Below are positions 33,704-45,419 of a stretch of DNA of 64,000 nt, one piece after another. Position numbers and translations under genes: made by a program. The notes below the pieces were generated by a model. It was not told the origin of the DNA. It was given only the letters and a program-made list of their open reading frames with translations, and searched no databases. The stretch is from Acidobacteriota bacterium. Its GTDB lineage: Bacteria; Acidobacteriota; Holophagae; Holophagales; Holophagaceae. Where the stretch lies: NCBI GenBank assembly GCA_005788175.1, contig SXYX01000014.1, forward strand, positions 1 through 64,000. The letters are read 5' to 3'. Every line of letters begins with the position of its first letter. Position 1 is the first letter of the stretch.

Positions 33704-33960
33704 TACTTTTCCTTGGGATCAGTATTTTTGCGATTTAGACGTTGGGACGTCTTAGCGAGTTCGTAAAATGCAGTCGCAATCCCCCAGATTAAACCGATCC
33801 ATTGACCACGAGTAGCATTTCCAAACCACCCCCCTATCCATTTTCCAAGAAAGAAACCTACAGTAATGGAAATAGGAAATACAAAAGCAAGAGAGCTAAG
33901 ATCACTCCACAAGGCACGCTCATTGGGCCCCGAATTCTTTGGATTTTGATCTGATTTCAT
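33703..33960 (-). CDS. AtpZ/AtpI family putative F0F1 assembly/ion-transport membrane protein
   Basis: SLAFVFPISITVGFFLGKWIGGWFGNATRGQWIGLIWGIATAFYEL. Confidence 0.75.
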   Translation of the reverse strand: MKSDQNPKNSGPNERALWSDLSSLAFVFPISITVGFFLGKWIGGWFGNATRGQWIGLIWGIATAFYELAKTSQRLNRKNTDPKEK

Positions 33961-35438
33961 AATTTAATGTTATCAACAACCTCAATGAGCCATCGGCCTG
34001 CTGAGACACCCAATAAGACTACGATGGCACAAATACTAACTAGATAGCCTGTCACACGATCTGTTTTAAGCGGCTCTTTATTCGGATGAGATCTAAAATA
34101 CATTTGGTTGATGACTCCAAGATAATAATACGCACTCACAGCACTCGTTAGAACAGCGATCACTGTCAGAAGAACGAAACCTCTCTCAAGGGCCATTTTA
34201 AAGAGTATGAATTTACTGAAAAAACCAATGAGGGGCGGAATTCCCGCCAGACTCAATAGGAATAACATCATGGCAAAAGCTAGCCAAGGATTGCGATGAG
34301 ATAGACCCCTAAAATCTTCGATACGTTCTCCTTCGCCCTTCCCTTGGAGAAAAGTAATGACAGCGAAAGCACCGAAATTCATAAAAAGATAGGAGAAAAC
34401 GTAAAGCCACAGAGTCTGGACCCCTGAGAAACTCATAACTGAGAGATTAGGATCATTGGAGAGTATCGCTAGCATCATATAGCCTACGTGAGCAATAGAG
34501 GAGTAAGCCAACATGCGTTTCATCGATTGCTGACGCAAAGCAGCAACATTTCCCAAGATCATGCTTGCTGCGGCCATGTATTCCATCCCAAGAATCCATG
34601 TGTTGGAAATATTATGAAAGCCAACTCCAAAAATCCTAGCAAAAGCAAAAATAGCAGCAGCTTTTGGAGCGCTCGCCATAAATGCTGTGATCGGAGTAGG
34701 AGCGCCATCATAAGCATCCGGAGTCCACATATGAAAGGGGACAACGGCAACCTTGAAGGCCATGCCTACAAGGACCATCAAGACACCTAGAGTCACCATT
34801 GTGGCCCGTGAATCCATTGCGATGACCAATTCAGAGGCTAGACGATCAAGATTGGTAGTTGTTCCTCCGGTCGCACCGAATACTAGACTGATGCCATAAA
34901 TCATAATGCCACTCGAAAAAGCCCCGAGAAGGAAGTATTTTACTCCCGCTTCAATACCTCTTTCTTGCTCACGAAGGTAGCCAACTAAAACGTAAATAGG
35001 GAGTGCCATCAATTCAATAGAAAAATAAATAGTCACAAGATCCGTGGCACCACAAAGAAATAACATTCCTGACAAGGCGAAGAGTAAAAGTGCGTAGAAC
35101 TCGACGGTATGTTCATGCATGAGATCTAACAACTTAGTAGATAGTGCCACAGTCGCTATAGTAGCCAGAGTGCAGATTAACTGAAAAGCTTGCGTCATCG
35201 TATCGATACGCAACATGCTAGAAAATCCTGACCGATGAGGCGTGAGGATAATTAGGAAGATCGTGATAGCAAGTGTGATCTGAGTTAAAAGTGACCAACG
35301 ACGCTTTTTATCCCGGGGAATCAAAAGGTCGCCAGGCCACAACATGAGACTCGCAACCCCAATTAGGAAAAAGGGGGCTTGTACAAGCGGTGCATCTTGC
35401 CAAAGAGCGGCTAAAAGACTTTGGGCAAAACCGGGCAT
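33957..35438 (-). CDS. nuoN: NADH-quinone oxidoreductase subunit N
   Basis: YFSIELMALPIYVLVGYLR; FKVAVVPFHMWTPDAYDGAPTPITAFMAS. Confidence 0.95.
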   Translation of the reverse strand: MPGFAQSLLAALWQDAPLVQAPFFLIGVASLMLWPGDLLIPRDKKRRWSLLTQITLAITIFLIILTPHRSGFSSMLRIDTMTQAFQLICTLATIATVALSTKLLDLMHEHTVEFYALLLFALSGMLFLCGATDLVTIYFSIELMALPIYVLVGYLREQERGIEAGVKYFLLGAFSSGIMIYGISLVFGATGGTTTNLDRLASELVIAMDSRATMVTLGVLMVLVGMAFKVAVVPFHMWTPDAYDGAPTPITAFMASAPKAAAIFAFARIFGVGFHNISNTWILGMEYMAAASMILGNVAALRQQSMKRMLAYSSIAHVGYMMLAILSNDPNLSVMSFSGVQTLWLYVFSYLFMNFGAFAVITFLQGKGEGERIEDFRGLSHRNPWLAFAMMLFLLSLAGIPPLIGFFSKFILFKMALERGFVLLTVIAVLTSAVSAYYYLGVINQMYFRSHPNKEPLKTDRVTGYLVSICAIVVLLGVSAGRWLIEVVDNIKL

Positions 35439-37069
35439 TAGCGCTTCTCCTCGATGACTTCAGAGTTGCCAGTATTGTTTGGGTTTTGAGGCGCTTCCAT
35501 TCCTCTCATTCCTTCTTGTTTTGCTTTCTCTTGATCTGCACTCAGTGAAGGAGCTTGGTAATAATCCGGGCTTAATTGTCTTACTAATTTCGCCACTGGA
35601 CGATCCATTATGTCCATTAAAGGACGAGGGTAAAGCCCAATCCAGATAGCCATCACCACCAAAGGTGCGAAGACTATGATTTCACGTGGGGTCAAATCAG
35701 GCATTTTGCGATTGACATCTGAAATAGATCCAAACATTACACGCTGAAACATCCACAACATATAAGCAGCGCCCAAGATAATACCAGTAGTAGCGACCAC
35801 GGCTGCCCAAGGGAATGCTTGGAAAGAACCCTGAAGAATAATTAACTCACCAATGAAACCGTTTAAAAGAGGTAACCCAATAGAGCTCATTGTCATAATC
35901 ATAAAAATTGTTGAGTAAACCGGCATGGTCTCGGAAAGACCCCCAAAATCTGCAATCATTCGCGTATGACGTCGATCATAGACAACAGCCACCGCAAGGA
36001 ACAAACCAGGCGTACTGATTCCATGATTAATCATTTGGAAAAGAGCTCCCTTAAATCCATAAGGATTTAAAGCGAAGATACCCAACATACACATACCCAA
36101 ATGGCTTACCGAACTATAGGCCACTAGCTTCTTCATATCCTTCTGAATCATGGCTACAAGGGCTCCATAGATAATCCCAATGAGCGATAGAGCGATGAAC
36201 CAAGGCATCAAATCCTTGACGGCTGTAGGGAAAATTGGAAGCAATAAACGTACAAAACCGTAAGTGCCCATTTTTAATAAAATACCGGCAAGAATGACGG
36301 ATCCAGCGGTAGGTGCTTGGACGTGCGCATCTGGCAACCAAGTATGAAATGGAAACATGGGAACTTTGATCGCAAAAGCAAGAAAGAAAGCAAGGGCGAG
36401 GAGGGTTTGATAAGTCCTGGTTTGCTCGGCAATAACGGGAGCCATGGCTTGAAATGATGCCAAAGAGAAATCAAGAGTCCCATTGGTCTCAACTTGCAAG
36501 AAATAGATTGCAAGAACAGCTACCAGTAAAAGGACAGAACCGGCGAGTGTATAGAGAAATAACTTGATCGCCGCATAAAGCTTTTGGGGACCTCCCCAAA
36601 TACCAATCAAGAAATACATTGGAACGAGCATAACTTCCCAAAAAACATAAAATAGAAACATATCCTGGGTAATAAACACGCCAAGCATCGCAGTTTGGAG
36701 CACTAATAACCAGACGTAATATTCCTTGAGTCGCTCAGTAATGGCTTCCCATGAACATAGAATGGCAATAGGTCCAATAAACGTAGTTAGCAACCACAAC
36801 AGCAAGCTTATCCCATCCATTCCAACACTAAACTGAATACCTAGTGAAGGAATCCATGACCAACTCTGGGCCCATTGAACTGCATCACTTGTACGATCGT
36901 AAGCGAAGAAGAAGGGGACGCTAAGCGCGAAGCTAAGAACAGTGGCAAATAAAGCACCTTTCTTGAAGATTTCACTTCGATCCTTTGGAACAAAGAGCAA
37001 TACTATGGCTGCAACAAAGGGTATAAAAGTTGCTGCTAGCATGAGGAGAGTATTAGCAAATTGACTCAT
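35438..37069 (-). CDS. nuoM: NADH-quinone oxidoreductase subunit M
   Basis: FYVFWEVMLVPMYFLIGIWGG; FPFHTWLPDAHVQAPTAGSVILAGILLKMGTYG. Confidence 0.96.
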   Translation of the reverse strand: MSQFANTLLMLAATFIPFVAAIVLLFVPKDRSEIFKKGALFATVLSFALSVPFFFAYDRTSDAVQWAQSWSWIPSLGIQFSVGMDGISLLLWLLTTFIGPIAILCSWEAITERLKEYYVWLLVLQTAMLGVFITQDMFLFYVFWEVMLVPMYFLIGIWGGPQKLYAAIKLFLYTLAGSVLLLVAVLAIYFLQVETNGTLDFSLASFQAMAPVIAEQTRTYQTLLALAFFLAFAIKVPMFPFHTWLPDAHVQAPTAGSVILAGILLKMGTYGFVRLLLPIFPTAVKDLMPWFIALSLIGIIYGALVAMIQKDMKKLVAYSSVSHLGMCMLGIFALNPYGFKGALFQMINHGISTPGLFLAVAVVYDRRHTRMIADFGGLSETMPVYSTIFMIMTMSSIGLPLLNGFIGELIILQGSFQAFPWAAVVATTGIILGAAYMLWMFQRVMFGSISDVNRKMPDLTPREIIVFAPLVVMAIWIGLYPRPLMDIMDRPVAKLVRQLSPDYYQAPSLSADQEKAKQEGMRGMEAPQNPNNTGNSEVIEEKR

Positions 37070-37091
37070 GAAATCTCCAAACTATAAGGTG

Positions 37092-39305
37092 TTAAACAAG
37101 GAATTTAAAAAATATTAGAAGAACAAAACCCAAAAGCATTACAAAGGCGTAATTTTGAACTCGACCAGATTGAAAAGCTTTGAATAGAGAAGCAAATTGT
37201 TGAAATATCCACGCTACAAAATTAACGAGGCCATCAACAATATAGGTGTCGAACCAATAGCTCAAATCTGCCAATAGAAGGGTCGCACGACTAGCGCCAT
37301 TGACCATCCCATCAACAACCCAGGTGTCAAAAGACCATAACTGACCACCGAGTCGCTTCATAGGTTTGATTATCAAAGCTTCATAAAATTCATCAATATA
37401 ATATCGAGCATGCACCCATTCAAAGAGACCAGGGTAGTTTTTGACAAAGGCCTGAGCACGTGACCATGAAGGATCTGATGCGTACATCCAGTAAGCAAGG
37501 GCCATAGCTCCTGGAGCCCAAATCACCGTTGCCCAAATCATAAGAACATATTCCATCTTAGAAACGGCTTCGATGCCTTCTGGAATTGATGCGACCTGAT
37601 AAAGGATCGGAGAAATCCATTCAGAGAAATAAGAATGACCTAAAAAATGGAGGGCATGGGGTACATTCAGAAAACCGCCGCCCACAGCCAAAAGTGCCAA
37701 AATAAAAACGGGTACCCACATATTCCATGGGACCTCATGGGGCACATGTGTGCCGCCTTGGTGATGATCGTGGCCATGAGCTTCTTCATGAACGGTCAAA
37801 TGATAGGGATCATCACCATTACCGCGGTAATTACCCAGGAAGGTCATACAAATTAGTCGCATCATATAAAATGCGGTAAAGAAAGCAGCGACCATCCCCA
37901 TCAACCACGTTGCAAGATAAAGGGTAGATCCTTGATAAGTTCCCCCTTGATACCACTCTTCGAAAACTTTCCAAAGAATTTCATCTTTGGAAAAGAATCC
38001 GCTGAACGGGAATATGCCTGCGATAGCAAAAGTTGAAAGCAACATTGACCAGAAGGTCCACGGCATATATTTTCTCAATCCGCCCATGTTGCGCATATCT
38101 TGTTCGTGATGACAAGCCATAATCACAGAACCGGAACCTAGAAATAGGCATGCCTTGAAAAATGCGTGCGTAAAGACATGGAACATACCTGCAGTAAAAG
38201 CTCCTGCACCCATACCCATGAACATAAATCCGAGTTGTGAGACGGTGCTGTAAGCAAGTACCTTTTTGATATCATTTTGGGCTAACCCCATTGAGGCTGC
38301 CATGAGAGCCGTCAAAGCGCCGACAAACAAAATCAAATGAAGCGCAGCAGGCGCGTTAATGAAAATAAAATTAAGTCGAGTAATCATATAGAGACCTGAT
38401 GTGACCATCGTCGCAGCATGAATAAGTGCCGAAACAGGCGTGGGGCCTGCCATGGCGTCAGGTAACCATACATAAAGAGGAATTTGTGCGGATTTACCCA
38501 TAGCCCCAACGAATAAACAACCTCCAATGAGATTCATCCAAAAAGTAGGAGTAGCGGTGTGGCCAAAAAGAGTGATTGACTGTGAAGACATGATAGATCT
38601 TGCTGAACCCATTAGGGTATCGAAGTCTAAAGATCCAAAAACCATAAATATCAGAAAGAAACCTAGCATAAAGCCGAAGTCACCAATACGATTTGTAACG
38701 AATGCCTTCTTGGCGGCATCGCCCGCATAGGTTTTATCAAAATAGAAACCAATGAGAAGATAAGAGCAAAGTCCGACGCCTTCCCATCCTAAAAACATCA
38801 TTAAGATATTGGCGCCTAGTACCAGATTGAGCATGCTAAATATAAAGAGGTTAAGATAAGCCATGAAGCGGTAATACCGATGATCTTTTTGCTCTTCTTC
38901 CATGTATCCAGTGCTAAAGAGATGGATCAGAAAGCCTGCTCCCGTAACTAACAGGGCCATGGTTGCGCTCAATACATCAAATTTATAAGCCCACTCCACT
39001 GTGGCATACGTTAGGACGTTACCTGCAATACGGGCGCCGCCTACGTCGAACCATGTCCACAAAGATTGGTGAAGACTTCGAGAGGCCTCGGGTAGTTGTA
39101 GGAGCTGGAAAAAATAAAATGCCGAGAGTAAGAACGAAACTCCAACAGAGCCTAGAGCAATACCATTGACCAATTGATTATTACGAAGATATTTACCCGT
39201 TAATCCATTGATTAGAAATCCAAATAGAGGAAGAAATGGAATGAGCCATAAATAGGAAACTGAATGAGAGACTGCCATTAAATGAGGAATTGATGATTCA
39301 TTCAT
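37092..39305 (-). CDS. nuoL: NADH-quinone oxidoreductase subunit L
   Basis: FLGWEGVGLCSYLLIGFYF; GKSAQIPLYVWLPDAMAGPTPVSALIHAATMVTSG. Confidence 0.97.
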   Translation of the reverse strand: MNESSIPHLMAVSHSVSYLWLIPFLPLFGFLINGLTGKYLRNNQLVNGIALGSVGVSFLLSAFYFFQLLQLPEASRSLHQSLWTWFDVGGARIAGNVLTYATVEWAYKFDVLSATMALLVTGAGFLIHLFSTGYMEEEQKDHRYYRFMAYLNLFIFSMLNLVLGANILMMFLGWEGVGLCSYLLIGFYFDKTYAGDAAKKAFVTNRIGDFGFMLGFFLIFMVFGSLDFDTLMGSARSIMSSQSITLFGHTATPTFWMNLIGGCLFVGAMGKSAQIPLYVWLPDAMAGPTPVSALIHAATMVTSGLYMITRLNFIFINAPAALHLILFVGALTALMAASMGLAQNDIKKVLAYSTVSQLGFMFMGMGAGAFTAGMFHVFTHAFFKACLFLGSGSVIMACHHEQDMRNMGGLRKYMPWTFWSMLLSTFAIAGIFPFSGFFSKDEILWKVFEEWYQGGTYQGSTLYLATWLMGMVAAFFTAFYMMRLICMTFLGNYRGNGDDPYHLTVHEEAHGHDHHQGGTHVPHEVPWNMWVPVFILALLAVGGGFLNVPHALHFLGHSYFSEWISPILYQVASIPEGIEAVSKMEYVLMIWATVIWAPGAMALAYWMYASDPSWSRAQAFVKNYPGLFEWVHARYYIDEFYEALIIKPMKRLGGQLWSFDTWVVDGMVNGASRATLLLADLSYWFDTYIVDGLVNFVAWIFQQFASLFKAFQSGRVQNYAFVMLLGFVLLIFFKFLV

Positions 39306-39310
39306 AAAGG

Positions 39311-39613
39311 TTATCCATTCAGTAAATTAATATCGTCGGCCTGGATCGTATCTTTACGTCGATACAACGCTACGACTAGAGCAAGGCCTATTGCAACTTC
39401 AGCTGCTGCAAAGCCCATTACTAGGAGTGCAAAAGCCTGACCTTCTACGGTTCCGCTCTGTCTAGAAAATGCGATGAGATTAAGATTTGCAGCATTGAGC
39501 ATGAGTTCAACCGACATTAAAATAATCAATACATTACGTCGAATTAAAACACCCGCAACTCCGATGAAAAACATCAGAGAAGAGACAAAAAGGACGACAT
39601 TGAGTGAGATCAT
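39311..39613 (-). CDS. nuoK: NADH-quinone oxidoreductase subunit K
   Basis: GVLIRRNVLIILMSVELMLNAANLNLIAFSR. Confidence 0.96.
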   Translation of the reverse strand: MISLNVVLFVSSLMFFIGVAGVLIRRNVLIILMSVELMLNAANLNLIAFSRQSGTVEGQAFALLVMGFAAAEVAIGLALVVALYRRKDTIQADDINLLNG

Positions 39614-40164
39614 GCCACACGCTCTGATTTTGCAAGAACGAGCGCCCCTACGAGAGAGACCAATAGGATCACGGAAAGGATTTCAAGAGGTAATAAGAAC
39701 CCTGCAAACAAGCCTCGACTCACACTTTGAGCATTTTGAGCACTTACAGAAAGGCCTTGAACAAGATCTGGAGGTAGCGTTAAGGCAACTGAAGCCGGGG
39801 CGTTAAATAAATTAGATTTCATTGTGTAAGCAAATGTAGCCATCGCAACTAAAATAAGAGGAATAGACCATTTGGTCTGCAGGGCAAATAAACTTTTTTC
39901 TTTATACTTGGTTAGTTCAACAAGCATGACGACAAAAAGAAAAAGAACCACAATACCACCGGCATAAATGAGGAGTTGAGCCATACCTAAAAATTCTGCA
40001 CTTAGACATAAAAAACAAGCAGCTACCATAATCATAGAAAATAAAAAACTAAGAACGCTATGAACTGCAGATTTAGAAAGAACCATGGCTGCAGCCCCAG
40101 CACAGGCCAAAAGACCGAACACGAAGAAAAGATTTTGACCAATTGTAATGAATAATGCATTCAT
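39610..40164 (-). CDS. nuoJ: NADH-quinone oxidoreductase subunit J
   Basis: FLGMAQLLIYAGGIVVLFLFVVMLVEL. Confidence 0.95.
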   Translation of the reverse strand: MNALFITIGQNLFFVFGLLACAGAAAMVLSKSAVHSVLSFLFSMIMVAACFLCLSAEFLGMAQLLIYAGGIVVLFLFVVMLVELTKYKEKSLFALQTKWSIPLILVAMATFAYTMKSNLFNAPASVALTLPPDLVQGLSVSAQNAQSVSRGLFAGFLLPLEILSVILLVSLVGALVLAKSERVA

Positions 40165-40176
40165 AGATTGTGCCTA

Positions 40177-40704
40177 TTAGGTGTAATCAGGAGAATCAGG
40201 GTTTTTAGTTGATGATATAGAGTGTTGACCTACAGGTGAGACGCGAAACATGTCTTGAAATTGCCCTTCCATACCAATCGAGAAATCCTCTCGGTTGTAA
40301 GCTGCTAACTCAAACTGATGATTTAGGATGATTGAATCGAATCCGCAACTTTCAACACAGAACTCGCAGAAAATACAGCGTTCCATCTCAAAGTCATAGC
40401 GAGTCGGAAAGGGGGTTTTACGTCCTTCTTTTTTACCCTTACTAATTGTAATAACCTGAGTAGGACATATTTTTTCACATGCCAAACAACAAACGCACTT
40501 AATCTCACCCTGCTCATCGCGGAGCATTTGGAGTCGCCCTCGAAAGCGCGGGGCAATTGAGATAGGCGTTTCGGGGTATTCCACTGTGATATGAATATGC
40601 TTTTTGGATCGATTGGCCTGCAAGAAATTTCTACCGAAGTATTTTCCAGTCAACTTCATGCCTGAGGCAATATCCAAGGGAAGTAGTTTTTTTAAGATAG
40701 ACAT
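40177..40704 (-). CDS. nuoI: NADH-quinone oxidoreductase subunit I
   Basis: CVCCLACEKICPTQVI and CIFCEFCVESCGFDSI 2x[4Fe-4S] motifs. Confidence 0.95.
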   Translation of the reverse strand: MSILKKLLPLDIASGMKLTGKYFGRNFLQANRSKKHIHITVEYPETPISIAPRFRGRLQMLRDEQGEIKCVCCLACEKICPTQVITISKGKKEGRKTPFPTRYDFEMERCIFCEFCVESCGFDSIILNHQFELAAYNREDFSIGMEGQFQDMFRVSPVGQHSISSTKNPDSPDYT

Positions 40705-40711
40705 AGTGATC

Positions 40712-41890
40712 CTAAAAAATTAGCCGAATAGTTGCAGCGATGACAAGGTTAACAAGGGTGACAGGAATAAGCCATTTCCAACCTACGCTCATCAGCTGAT
40801 CGTATCGATATCGAGGGAGCGTGGCGCGTACCCAAAGAAAGGTAAAAAGTAAAAAAAAGACTTTACCAAAGAAGAATAACAAACTAGGTTGAGCAAGAAA
40901 GGGAATGGAATCAGGAACAAATCTTTGGAGGCCGAAAGGTAATAAGTAGTGTCCGCCGAGGAAAAATCCTGCTGCAATGGCCGAAACTGCCATCATGTTT
41001 GCATATTCAGCCAACATGAACCAGGCAAACTTCATGCCGCTATACTCCGTATGAAATCCTGATACCAACTCAGTTTCAGCTTCGGCCAAATCAAATGGAA
41101 CACGATTGGTTTCTGCAAAGCCACATGTGATGTAAAAAAAGAATCCAAAGAATAAGGGGATTGCTGCAATTAAGGGCATCTGCACGATCTCTCCAGCGGC
41201 CGTGACCATGGGAACACCTGCTAGATAAAGCGAGAGTTCTCTAAAATTTAATGTTCCAGAAAGCACTACTGCTACTAGGAGAGAAAGGCTCAGAGGAATT
41301 TCATAACTGATTATTTGAGCTGCACTTCGGAGACCCCCAAGAAGAGGATATTTCGAATTAGAAGCCCAGCCCCCAAGAACGATCCCATAAACACCAATTG
41401 ACCCAACGGCCATAATGTACAGTAAGCCTACGTTTATATCTGTCAAGAAACCCGTGAAGGGCAAGCCGCCTATGATGGGAAATGTTGTTGGAAAGGTGAA
41501 TAGGGTTCCAGGATAGAAGCAGATGACTGCGAAAGTTGCGAAGGCAGGAATCATACAAATGACCGGTGCAATGACGAATACAAAACGATCCGCTCGATCA
41601 GGAACAATATCTTCCTTAAGAAGGAGCTTTAATCCGTCGGCAGCAAAAACGGGTAGACCTCTGAAGAACGATAAGATGGGTATTCGACCCATGGCCCAAG
41701 AAAGTTTATTGATCCCAGCGGCAAAACCTCGTATCCCTCCAGCTTGGCGGGTCGCTCCTAGGCGAACCTGGATGTAACCGATGACTTTTCTTTCGGCGAA
41801 TGTCATTAGCGGCACGATCAAAAGAATGATTGAGACCAGTACAGTAATTTGAATTATGGCCATTACGACCTGCTGAACGGGAGTCATCAT
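40712..41890 (-). CDS. nuoH: NADH-quinone oxidoreductase subunit H with enlarged first loop
   Basis: FAERKVIGYIQVRLG...ADGLKLLLKEDIVP; GFAETNRVPFDLAEAETELVSGFHTEYSGMKFA. Confidence 0.96.
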   Translation of the reverse strand: MMTPVQQVVMAIIQITVLVSIILLIVPLMTFAERKVIGYIQVRLGATRQAGGIRGFAAGINKLSWAMGRIPILSFFRGLPVFAADGLKLLLKEDIVPDRADRFVFVIAPVICMIPAFATFAVICFYPGTLFTFPTTFPIIGGLPFTGFLTDINVGLLYIMAVGSIGVYGIVLGGWASNSKYPLLGGLRSAAQIISYEIPLSLSLLVAVVLSGTLNFRELSLYLAGVPMVTAAGEIVQMPLIAAIPLFFGFFFYITCGFAETNRVPFDLAEAETELVSGFHTEYSGMKFAWFMLAEYANMMAVSAIAAGFFLGGHYLLPFGLQRFVPDSIPFLAQPSLLFFFGKVFFLLFTFLWVRATLPRYRYDQLMSVGWKWLIPVTLVNLVIAATIRLIF

Positions 41891-42987
41891 CGGTCTACCT
41901 CACCTAGAACGACATCAAGTGTTCCAATAGCGGCGATCACATCTGCAAGTAAACGGCCTTCCGTCATTTGCGGTAGGGCTTGTAAATTAACAAAAGAGGG
42001 ACCCCGAACATGAAAACGATAAGGGTTTTGTCCACCCTTCTCCCCAACTAGGTAATACCCAAGTTCGCCTTTCGGCGCTTCAATAGGATGATAAATTTCA
42101 TTCACTTCAGATTTTAATACTTTGGGAATCTTTGCCATCACATTGCCCTCGGGGAGCCCGTCAATACATTGCTGTATGATGTGATGACTCTGTCTGAACT
42201 CTTCGAGACGAACGAGATAGCGAGCGTATGTATCCGCTTCTGTTCGGGTCGGTATTTCGAAATTCATTTCTGCATATGCGGCGTAAGGAAATGCTTTTCT
42301 GACATCATATTTGACGCCGGCAGCACGAAGAACTGGGCCCGTGACTCCGAAAGCAATACATTCATCTGCATTTATAGGAGCAATACCAATGGTTCTCCTT
42401 TTCCAGATACGATTTTCGGTCAATAAAGTCTCGTATTCATCGATACAGTCTAAGAATCTATCTTGAAAAGCTTGAACCTGCTTGATGAATCCCGGAGGAA
42501 TGTCTTCGCGCAAGCCTCCAATCCGAAAAGCTGTCGTGGTTAGACGTGCCCCACAAAATGACTCAAAGCAATCGAGAATCTGTTCGCGCTCTCGGAAGGC
42601 ATAAAGAAATACGGTCATAGCTCCAATATCTAGTGCATGAGTTCCGAGCCATAACAGATGGGAGCTGATACGATTCAGTTCTGTCATCATCGTTCGAACG
42701 TAATGAGCTCGACGCGGTACATGAATACCAAATAATTTTTCTACTGACTCTGCCCATCCAAGATTATTACTTACAGCGGCCACATAATCCATACGGTCGG
42801 TCCAGACCTGACCTTGAAAAAAAGTTTTATTCTCGCAAATCTTTTCGACTCCGCGGTGGAGGTAGCCCACAATGGGCGTGCATTTGACGATCGTTTCACC
42901 ATCGAGACGAAGTTTAACTCTAAGCACACCGTGGGTTGAAGGATGCTGAGGTCCGAGATTAATTTCTAATTCCTCATTTTTAAACAC
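41887..42987 (-). CDS. nuoD: NADH-quinone oxidoreductase subunit D
   Basis: EINLGPQHPSTHGVLRVKLRLDGE; GYLHRGVEKI; WTDRMDYVA. Confidence 0.97.
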   Translation of the reverse strand: MFKNEELEINLGPQHPSTHGVLRVKLRLDGETIVKCTPIVGYLHRGVEKICENKTFFQGQVWTDRMDYVAAVSNNLGWAESVEKLFGIHVPRRAHYVRTMMTELNRISSHLLWLGTHALDIGAMTVFLYAFREREQILDCFESFCGARLTTTAFRIGGLREDIPPGFIKQVQAFQDRFLDCIDEYETLLTENRIWKRRTIGIAPINADECIAFGVTGPVLRAAGVKYDVRKAFPYAAYAEMNFEIPTRTEADTYARYLVRLEEFRQSHHIIQQCIDGLPEGNVMAKIPKVLKSEVNEIYHPIEAPKGELGYYLVGEKGGQNPYRFHVRGPSFVNLQALPQMTEGRLLADVIAAIGTLDVVLGEVDR

Positions 42988-42998
42988 CGATCAAACTC

Positions 42999-44543
42999 CT
43001 AGTTGGCTTCTGGTTTCTTGAGATTTATATTGAGATTTCCTGCTTTTTCTAAAGACAGGCGCATTAAAACACCAGATCGATCTTCACGGAAATCTATTTC
43101 ACGCTGCCCAAGTCCTAAGGTGGGATATTCCTTGCGCAAAGGATACCCTTCCCAATCGTCGGGACAGAGAATTCGTCTAAGATCGGGATGGTTTTTAAAA
43201 CGTATTCCGAACATATCAAACACTTCTCGTTCAAGCCAATTGGCACCAGGATAAACAGATACTGCGCTTTCTACATCATAGTTTTCAGGTATTAATATGC
43301 GTAATCGCAGGCGACGTTGACGAGAAAGACTAGTCAAATGGTAAACAATAGAAAATTTAAATTCATCAGCTACAGGATAGTGCGTTGCTGTTTCATCAAC
43401 AAGCATTTCAAATTTTAATGCTGGATCATCTTTACATAATACTAATGCTTCTAGAATTGCTTCGGGAGCCACTTGACATACTAATTCTCCAGATTGTTGG
43501 AAGATTTCTTGAACGCTAGCTCCAAGCTTCTCCCTCAGATAAAGAAGTTCTGGAGCATCGGCTGAAGCGGGTACCGGAGCAATCATATCGTTATCATCTT
43601 TTTTGGGTGCAGGACGAACGGGAGCCTTGGGTGGCTCTTTGTTTTCACCGAGAGCCTTGGTTTTATTGATTTCATAATCAGCCAATTGCTTTTGCCACTT
43701 GGCTTCATCGGCAATTTTTTGTGCCTCTTGTTCGGCTAAAAAAGTCCTCAGACTTGGAAGAGGGATTGTTTTGGGCATCACTACAACTCGATTGGGTGCG
43801 GCGGCGATGTCCCAAACAAAAGATCGAACTGCATCGGGACTATGATCATGCACTGCATCGAGTTTCTTTTCGATCTTAGGCACATCTCCAAAGACGCCAT
43901 ATTTAATAACATCTACAGGGCAACCTGCAGCTGCCGAGATAATTTTTTCAACTAACGATTCCCCTAGTACTTGCTTAATTTTAGACTTTTCAAATCGATT
44001 TTCGTTTTCTTTTCCATCAAGTCGAACATCGGCTTTGATATGACAACTATCTGCTGTCACATGGAAGACTTCTGGGCACTCAGCTTCGCATGCATTACAT
44101 ACGATACAACCTTCATCAATCCAGACTTCTGTAATCCGAGGTTTCGGCGCAGAAGTTATTGTTTCGGAAATCACGGATTGAACTTTAGCCAAAGCAGGCT
44201 CAGTTTCCGCGACCATTGGAACCACAGAGGTAATAACTTCTATCGCAACCTCTACTTCAATCTTGGGAGGCTCGATAGGTATCTGTGAAATTATTTGTTC
44301 GTATTGAATTACGTTAACTGGGCATGCTACAGCCGCTGCAATAATGCTGGTTTCTAAAGATGATTGAAGTCCGTTCTGAAGGACAGATTTAGAGGAACGA
44401 TTTTCATCTTCTTGACCATCTATTCTGGCATCAGCCTTGATATGACAACTATCGGCTGTGACATGAAATACATCGGGGCATTCTGCCTCACAGGCGTTGC
44501 ATACGATACAACCTTCTTCAATCCATACTTTGGTAATAGGCAT
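42999..44543 (-). CDS. nuoC: Tandem ferredoxin-NuoC fusion: two [4Fe-4S] ferredoxin domains plus NADH-quinone oxidoreductase subunit C
   Basis: GCIVCNACEAECPDVFHVTADSCHIKAD...ACPVNVI and GCIVCNACEAECPEVFHVTADSCHIKAD...GCPVDVI followed by NuoC signature YPGANWLEREVFDMFGIRFKNHPDLRRILCPDDWEGYPLRKEYP. Confidence 0.94.
   Translation of the reverse strand: MPITKVWIEEGCIVCNACEAECPDVFHVTADSCHIKADARIDGQEDENRSSKSVLQNGLQSSLETSIIAAAVACPVNVIQYEQIISQIPIEPPKIEVEVAIEVITSVVPMVAETEPALAKVQSVISETITSAPKPRITEVWIDEGCIVCNACEAECPEVFHVTADSCHIKADVRLDGKENENRFEKSKIKQVLGESLVEKIISAAAGCPVDVIKYGVFGDVPKIEKKLDAVHDHSPDAVRSFVWDIAAAPNRVVVMPKTIPLPSLRTFLAEQEAQKIADEAKWQKQLADYEINKTKALGENKEPPKAPVRPAPKKDDNDMIAPVPASADAPELLYLREKLGASVQEIFQQSGELVCQVAPEAILEALVLCKDDPALKFEMLVDETATHYPVADEFKFSIVYHLTSLSRQRRLRLRILIPENYDVESAVSVYPGANWLEREVFDMFGIRFKNHPDLRRILCPDDWEGYPLRKEYPTLGLGQREIDFREDRSGVLMRLSLEKAGNLNINLKKPEAN
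43893..44141 (-). repeat. Ferredoxin-domain repeat copy 2 within the nuoC fusion (residues 135-217)
   Basis: Same motif layout CIVCNACEAECP...GCPVDVIKY; clearly alignable to copy 1 at DNA level. Confidence 0.9.
44298..44543 (-). repeat. Ferredoxin-domain repeat copy 1 within the nuoC fusion (residues 1-82)
   Basis: 40 of 47 residues identical to copy 2 across ITKVWIEEG...DENR / ITEVWIDEG...NENR. Confidence 0.9.
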
Positions 44544-44546
44544 TGG

Positions 44547-45062
44547 TTACCCAACAGACTCGAAAATTTCACCATAACGATCCGACATGCTGGACGTCAT
44601 AATTTTATCTTGTAGTTTTAGAAAACCATAAATCAAGCTCTCAGGACGAGGAGGACATCCAGGTATGTATACATCTACGGGGATAATTTTATCGACCCCC
44701 TGAATAGTGTGGTAACTATCAAACGGTCCCCCTGCTGTAGCGCAGGATCCCATGGCGATTACCCATTTGGGTTCTGGCATTTGATCATATAGTTTCTTGA
44801 TCACGGGAGCCATCTTATAAGTAACCGTTCCGGCGACAATCATCAAGTCCGATTGTCGTGGAGTTGCACGAAAAATTCCTGCGCCGAATCGGTCGAAATC
44901 AAAACGACTAGCACCCGCTGCCATCATTTCAATTGCACAACAGGCCAATCCAAAGGTCATCGGCCATACCGATGAGGCTCGTGCCCAATTGACTACTTTT
45001 TCTACTTTAGTAGTAATCAATATGTGTTCGAGTGATGAGGGTTGATTAAGTATAACGGACAT
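44547..45062 (-). CDS. nuoB: NADH-quinone oxidoreductase subunit B
   Basis: [43 protein letters not shown]. Confidence 0.97.
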
Positions 45063-45065
45063 GAA

Positions 45066-45419
45066 TTACTCCCAATTTAGGGCGCCTTTTGACCAAATAT
45101 AGGCGTACCCAATTAACAACAAAAACAGAAATATACCCATCTCTACTAATCCAAAAATCCATAACTCTTTCATCTGAAGAGCCCAGGGAAGCAGAAAAAC
45201 GGTTTCGACATCAAACACTAAGAAAAGGACCGCGACAAGATAATATCTAACACTGAATTTTTCTCGGGCATCAGTGGTCGTTGCAATTCCACACTCGTAG
45301 GTTGAATGCTTTGATACGCTGTAGAAACTTGGGCGAATTAAGCGAGAAAGACTCCACACTAAAGCAGGTAAGGTAAGGGATATAGCAATGAGCAACAAAA
45401 TAGGTGCATAGCCTTGCAT
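45066..45419 (-). CDS. nuoA: NADH-quinone oxidoreductase subunit A
   Basis: YECGIATTTDAREKFSVRYYLVAVLFLVFDVETVFLLPWAL. Confidence 0.95.
   Translation of the reverse strand: MQGYAPILLLIAISLTLPALVWSLSRLIRPSFYSVSKHSTYECGIATTTDAREKFSVRYYLVAVLFLVFDVETVFLLPWALQMKELWIFGLVEMGIFLFLLLIGYAYIWSKGALNWE

Follow-up and report, generated by a model that had tools for sequence, protein, structure and literature searches.

A NuoC subunit carrying two tandem ferredoxin domains, a candidate tethered electron donor for an 11-subunit complex I in Holophagaceae

Results

In the 64,000-nucleotide stretch of Holophagaceae DNA analysed here (hereafter the window), the nuoC gene of a complex I cluster encodes a protein in which two single-cluster ferredoxins precede the NuoC domain. 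We propose that the corresponding enzyme oxidizes reduced ferredoxin with quinone and that this donor, which usually diffuses freely, is in part anchored to NuoC, with electrons passing from KorAB through the tethered ferredoxins to NuoI and on to quinone. From the sequence evidence below, we give this reading a probability of roughly two in three.

The fused NuoC

The gene starts 3 nt past the stop codon of nuoB, and its domains are given in Table 1 together with the rest of the cluster. The first-pass annotation had described a 514-residue NuoC with two complete ferredoxins (residues 1-82 and 135-217, here placed at ~3-82 and 137-217) and a canonical NuoC domain at the C-terminal side; profiles and cysteines agree with it on the ferredoxins, and profiles and structure comparison on the NuoC domain. 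Pfam finds Fer4_13 on two stretches of the protein (E=2e-9; Fer4_15, E=3e-9) and Complex1_30kDa (PF00329) at residues 357-475 (E=6e-41, 140 bits versus a cut-off of 22.5). The curated cut-off of TIGR01961 (NuoC_fam) is also passed (134 versus 122). A Holophagaceae ferredoxin HMM matches at 44295-44540 (152.5 bits) and at 43896-44135 (151.3 bits); these scores give position and no independent proof, because the model was built with these two domains included.

Table 1. Features of the fused nuoC gene and of the surrounding 11-subunit cluster, in window coordinates.
Feature	Coordinates	Strand	Evidence and remarks
nuoC-1	42999..44543	(-)	514 aa; order FdA - linker 1 - FdB - linker 2 with helix - NuoC
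Ferredoxin domain A (FdA), residues 3-82	44298..44537	(-)	Fer4_13/Fer4_15, HMM match; ligands C12, C15, C18, C74
Linker 1, residues 83-136	44136..44297	(-)	fast-evolving
Ferredoxin domain B (FdB), residues 137-217	43893..44135	(-)	Pfam, HMM; ligands C146, C149, C152, C208
Linker 2, residues 218-330	43554..43892	(-)	includes predicted helix 265-299 (43647-43751)
Canonical NuoC domain, residues 331-514	43002..43553	(-)	PF00329, TIGR01961, Foldseek
nuoA-1	45066..45419	(-)	sequence
nuoB-1	44547..45062	(-)	PF01058; N2 cluster ligands present
nuoD-1	41887..42987	(-)	PF00346
nuoH-1	40712..41890	(-)	PF00146
nuoI-1	40177..40704	(-)	two 4Fe-4S motifs (N6a, N6b); TIGR01971 102.5 bits, just under the cut-off of 113
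nuoJ-1, K-1, L-1, M-1, N-1 (membrane arm)	33957..40164	(-)	sequence, tblastn to relatives

FdB and FdA are identical at 55/80 residues, with cysteines at positions 12, 15, 18, 22, 33 and 74 in FdA and 146, 149, 152, 156, 167 and 208 in FdB. The CxxCxxC motif and the distal CP are invariant across all fused and free copies read, whereas Ser or Thr replaces the fourth Cys of CxxCxxCxxxC in some free copies and in the domain B sequences of genus g11. The ligands are therefore best read as CxxCxxC plus CP, the ligand set of a single-cluster [4Fe-4S] ferredoxin, which both domains possess. Thus the Thermotoga-type layout recognized in the first pass stands, and we reject the fourth Cys as a cluster ligand.

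The small ferredoxins of known structure closest to the domains, those of Thermotoga maritima (1vjw), Pyrococcus furiosus (2z8q) and Bacillus thermoproteolyticus (1iqz), share these CxxCxxC...CP ligands, whereas the Holophagaceae domains, tethered and duplicated, differ by an extended loop that carries a conserved motif of the RxDGxExEN type. This loop, RxDGxExEN(R/K), is conserved in free and fused ferredoxins, absent from the Thermotoga ferredoxin and lost in the free copy of one genome (G007); it could be a partner-docking signature. No PDB chain matches both the ferredoxin and the NuoC parts, the full-length matches spanning the NuoC side only.

An AlphaFold2 model (23-row alignment) is confident over the NuoC domain and over a 35-residue helix in linker 2 (pLDDT ~76-91), and a Foldseek search with it matched complex I 30-kDa/NuoC chains (rmsd 1.4-1.9 Å over ~145 columns). 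The ferredoxin domains, with few aligned rows, reach pLDDT ~45-65, their assignment resting on the profile match, and prediction of the fusion without an alignment gave pLDDT 35. Residues 218-330 had been taken for a charged, Pro-rich linker. A linker it is, but not a merely flexible one, since the predicted helix region is conserved also in relatives without ferredoxin on NuoC, where this region and NuoC are ~60-67% identical to the fused form. With 113 residues, including the predicted helix, linker 2 would give the tethered ferredoxins ample reach.

Conservation of the fusion

Two congeneric species show the same FdA-FdB-NuoC layout, with 81% identity. In comparisons between congeneric species, identity is 86-94% for domains A and B and 87-95% for NuoC, versus 38-59% for linker 1. 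In the ferredoxin domains, dN/dS, taken only from comparisons with unsaturated dS, is ~0.03-0.05 (~0.03-0.04 in domain A), similar to NuoC. Purifying selection acts on the two ferredoxin domains about as strongly as on NuoC, and linker 1 drifts. The window genome is represented by a fragmented draft of 85% completeness. Even so, the possibility that an assembly error or a frameshift, both named as possible refutations in the first-pass annotation, or a chimera fused a ferredoxin gene with nuoC can be dismissed, because these congeners share the layout, other Holophagaceae genera have the fusion or a form of it with a single ferredoxin (the latter also in the single-contig genomes G007, G016 and G023), the frames are open, and all three domains are under purifying selection. 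Ligand loss in close homologues, another foreseen objection, did not materialize, as all four ligands are kept in every copy read.

An 11-subunit cluster beside a second, NADH-type complex I

The window cluster, nuoABCDHIJKLMN, keeps A, B, C, D and H-N together with no extra genes between nuoA and nuoN, and relatives share its gene order. As first noted, nuoE, nuoF and nuoG are absent from it. It thus has the gene set of an 11-subunit complex I lacking the N-module, with intact N6a, N6b and N2 ligand motifs, and not that of a canonical 14-subunit NADH complex I, which has NuoEFG in the same system. In several other Acidobacteriota, the NuoC-containing cluster (L087, L089, L092, L096, L101, L102 and L136) likewise shows no nuoEFG over the part that was read; complexes I of 11 subunits may therefore be widespread in this phylum. 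The second motif of NuoI-1 is CxxCxxCxxxCG instead of CP in all Holophagaceae copies read (10/10), and NuoI-2 has the usual CP; this replacement might tune cluster N6b.

Elsewhere in the genome, nuoA2B2C2D2EF lies at ~185-190 kb of contig C14 (L033, 5128-9878), nuoH2-N2 at ~113-120 kb of C14 (L059, 1048-8481), and a gene for a 499-residue NuoG on contig C7 (L060, 7727-9226). The NADH-type genes are scattered over these three places, and NuoG is short and scores under the NuoG equivalog cut-off. Since every family genome examined has at least two NuoH (24/24) and nuoEFG is complete in a separate system, the gene content indicates that the genome encodes an NADH-type complex I as well as an 11-subunit one, and that the tether belongs to the latter. 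A cell without NuoEFG is rejected by the complete NADH-type set, and two interchangeable peripheral heads on a shared membrane arm by the second NuoH-N set.

Because this second full set is encoded, the ferredoxins are no stand-in for the lost N-module of a sole complex I. The covalently wired input suggested in the first pass is the best-fitting reading of the fusion; the idea that it replaces the N-module of the only complex I does not hold. The ferredoxins supplement a distinct 11-subunit paralogue that occurs throughout the family and that Geothrix and others keep without them.

Distribution of fused and free ferredoxins

The Holophagaceae (Acidobacteriota) comprise Geothrix and uncultured relatives, including G011 (JACPUT010000006.1), G019 (SZAS-17) and G025 (a MAG). 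A search for the same architecture across genomes, proposed with the first-pass annotation, found NuoC with two ferredoxins in the window genus, in G011, which represents a distinct genus, and in genus g11, and NuoC with one ferredoxin in g6 (except G035) and in G019. Geothrix and most other family members have NuoC without ferredoxin. On the NuoC tree, the fused state requires at least four changes among two, one or no ferredoxins; the ferredoxin tree, with its 75 columns, is too weak to distinguish a single from a repeated origin of domain B. We extracted the same ferredoxin as a free protein of ~84 residues from 20 genomes, fusion carriers included. This free form is present in every genome where it was searched for by sequence, and it is identical to domain A at 54/80 residues.

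The first-pass annotation had not recognized the architecture from described complex I enzymes, and it has no precedent that we could find outside Holophagaceae. No ferredoxin of this type was detected at E<=1e-10 in the Acidobacteriota outside the family (217 Acidobacteriota genomes), no CxxCxxC occurs in 14 long non-Holophagaceae NuoC frames among the matches listed from a survey of 149 Acidobacteriota genomes, and no NuoC-ferredoxin fusion appears in 50 scanned NuoC loci of other lineages. The 14 long frames were rejected as precedents, being Pro/Ala-rich tails, read-through upstream of the start, or NuoCD/BCD fusions. Nor did a scan of viral contigs return relatives, and the openly licensed literature yielded no description of a NuoC-ferredoxin fusion or of a Holophaga complex I. 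Very long N-terminal tails rich in Pro, Ala, Lys and Arg occur on several Acidobacteriota NuoC (L189, L190, L193, L198 and L200).

Metabolic setting

Two congeners that are at least 96% complete have genes for KorA, which passes the TIGR03710 cut-off, and for KorB, which stays under that of TIGR02177; neither has a 2-oxoglutarate dehydrogenase E1. The search for KorAB in the 85% complete assembly of the window genome found none. KorAB is the only POR-type enzyme found in this small-genome genus, and such a 2-oxoacid:ferredoxin oxidoreductase is, from gene content, the likely source of its reduced ferredoxin, with 2-oxoglutarate probably the substrate. In M. tuberculosis under air, KorAB closes the oxidative TCA cycle (PMC2773412). 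A Fer4_7 scan revealed no other small ferredoxins in the genus, a scan that other ferredoxin types could escape. The fusion is no consistent marker of 2-oxoglutarate dehydrogenase loss, since G007 (g6) has one fused ferredoxin together with this enzyme.

Assemblies of the window genus (G000, G001 and G002) measure 0.9-1.2 Mb, versus mostly 2-5 Mb in relatives. This small-genome genus retains two complexes I, a haem-copper oxidase and ATP synthase genes.

Discussion

In the mechanism that we propose, KorAB would make most of the reduced ferredoxin from a 2-oxoacid, probably 2-oxoglutarate, and pass electrons, possibly through the free ferredoxin, to FdA/FdB on NuoC. Since NuoG is missing, N6a, the outer cluster of NuoI, should be exposed, and FdA/FdB would swing on the long linker to the NuoI surface thus left open, delivering electrons to N6a, N6b, N2 and quinone and driving proton pumping. 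The tether would raise the local donor concentration and fix specificity. That clusters assemble in both domains, that their potentials suit forward electron flow, that the domains dock on NuoI and that tethering brings a quantitative benefit is what we infer here. The two domains might further act in series, as a covalent relay from free ferredoxin or KorAB through FdA and FdB to N6a, which would turn the donor into a built-in, countable part; we consider such a relay about as likely as not. Any benefit of the tether is conditional, because most of the family manages without it, and the tether is an evolved option, given that relatives keep this complex with a single tethered ferredoxin or none, alongside the free form.

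Ferredoxin input has been considered for other complexes I without an N-module. The 11-subunit enzyme of Desulfitobacterium has the same NuoABCDHIJKLMN composition without NuoEFG, and ferredoxin was proposed as its cytoplasmic donor (PMC11238625); there, unlike in the window, the donor is separate and still a list of candidates, and no NuoC-fused ferredoxin is described. Cyanobacterial and plastid NDH-1 also lacks an N-module, and the route proposed here is the same as in that enzyme, where ferredoxin binds at the end of the arm to reduce N6a in NdhI, electrons continuing through N6b and N2 to quinone (PMC7021789). In NDH-1, a free [2Fe-2S] ferredoxin docks transiently, helped by NdhS/V/O (PMC7021789), whereas in the window enzyme the domains are of the [4Fe-4S] type and covalently joined to NuoC, and the operon has no genes for additional subunits. 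NuoC also takes part in the NuoCD and NuoBCD fusions (PMC12361115), which join existing complex I subunits, whereas the fusion described here adds an electron-carrier protein.

The enzyme might instead run in the opposite direction, with the pmf driving quinol oxidation and the tethered ferredoxins serving as a product-release site that supplies low-potential electrons for biosynthesis. Complex I-type enzymes are reversible, the 2M complex I of Nitrospira was proposed to reduce ferredoxin in reverse (PMC6606698), and exchange between the acidic ferredoxin domains and the free copy would take place whichever way the electrons go. We nevertheless consider this direction unlikely: with KorAB as the only POR-type enzyme found and E1 missing, reduced ferredoxin is produced in the oxidative direction and not consumed, and the haem-copper oxidase encoded in the genus indicates respiration.

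Slightly less probable still is a mainly structural or recruiting role, in which the domains cap the open NuoI/NuoC end at the place of the absent NuoG, or recruit KorAB or another partner to the membrane, and the free ferredoxin delivers the electrons. Long cluster-free N-terminal extensions are common on Acidobacteriota NuoC, and the conserved helix and linker occur also in relatives lacking the ferredoxins, as such a role would allow; a purely structural role, however, would not need the four ligands that every fused copy read has kept.

For many 11-subunit complexes I without the NADH module, the electron donor is an open question, because a diffusible donor is hard to identify. Here a candidate donor is written into NuoC, and ferredoxin input therefore becomes directly testable. 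The fusion also suggests how a carrier could be wired to an energy-converting enzyme, and the series of zero, one or two tethers within one family is a natural set for measuring the effect of donor tethering on a proton-pumping enzyme. For the Holophagaceae themselves, the occurrence of zero, one or two ferredoxins among relatives suggests a proton pump that keeps its own electron feeder on a leash.
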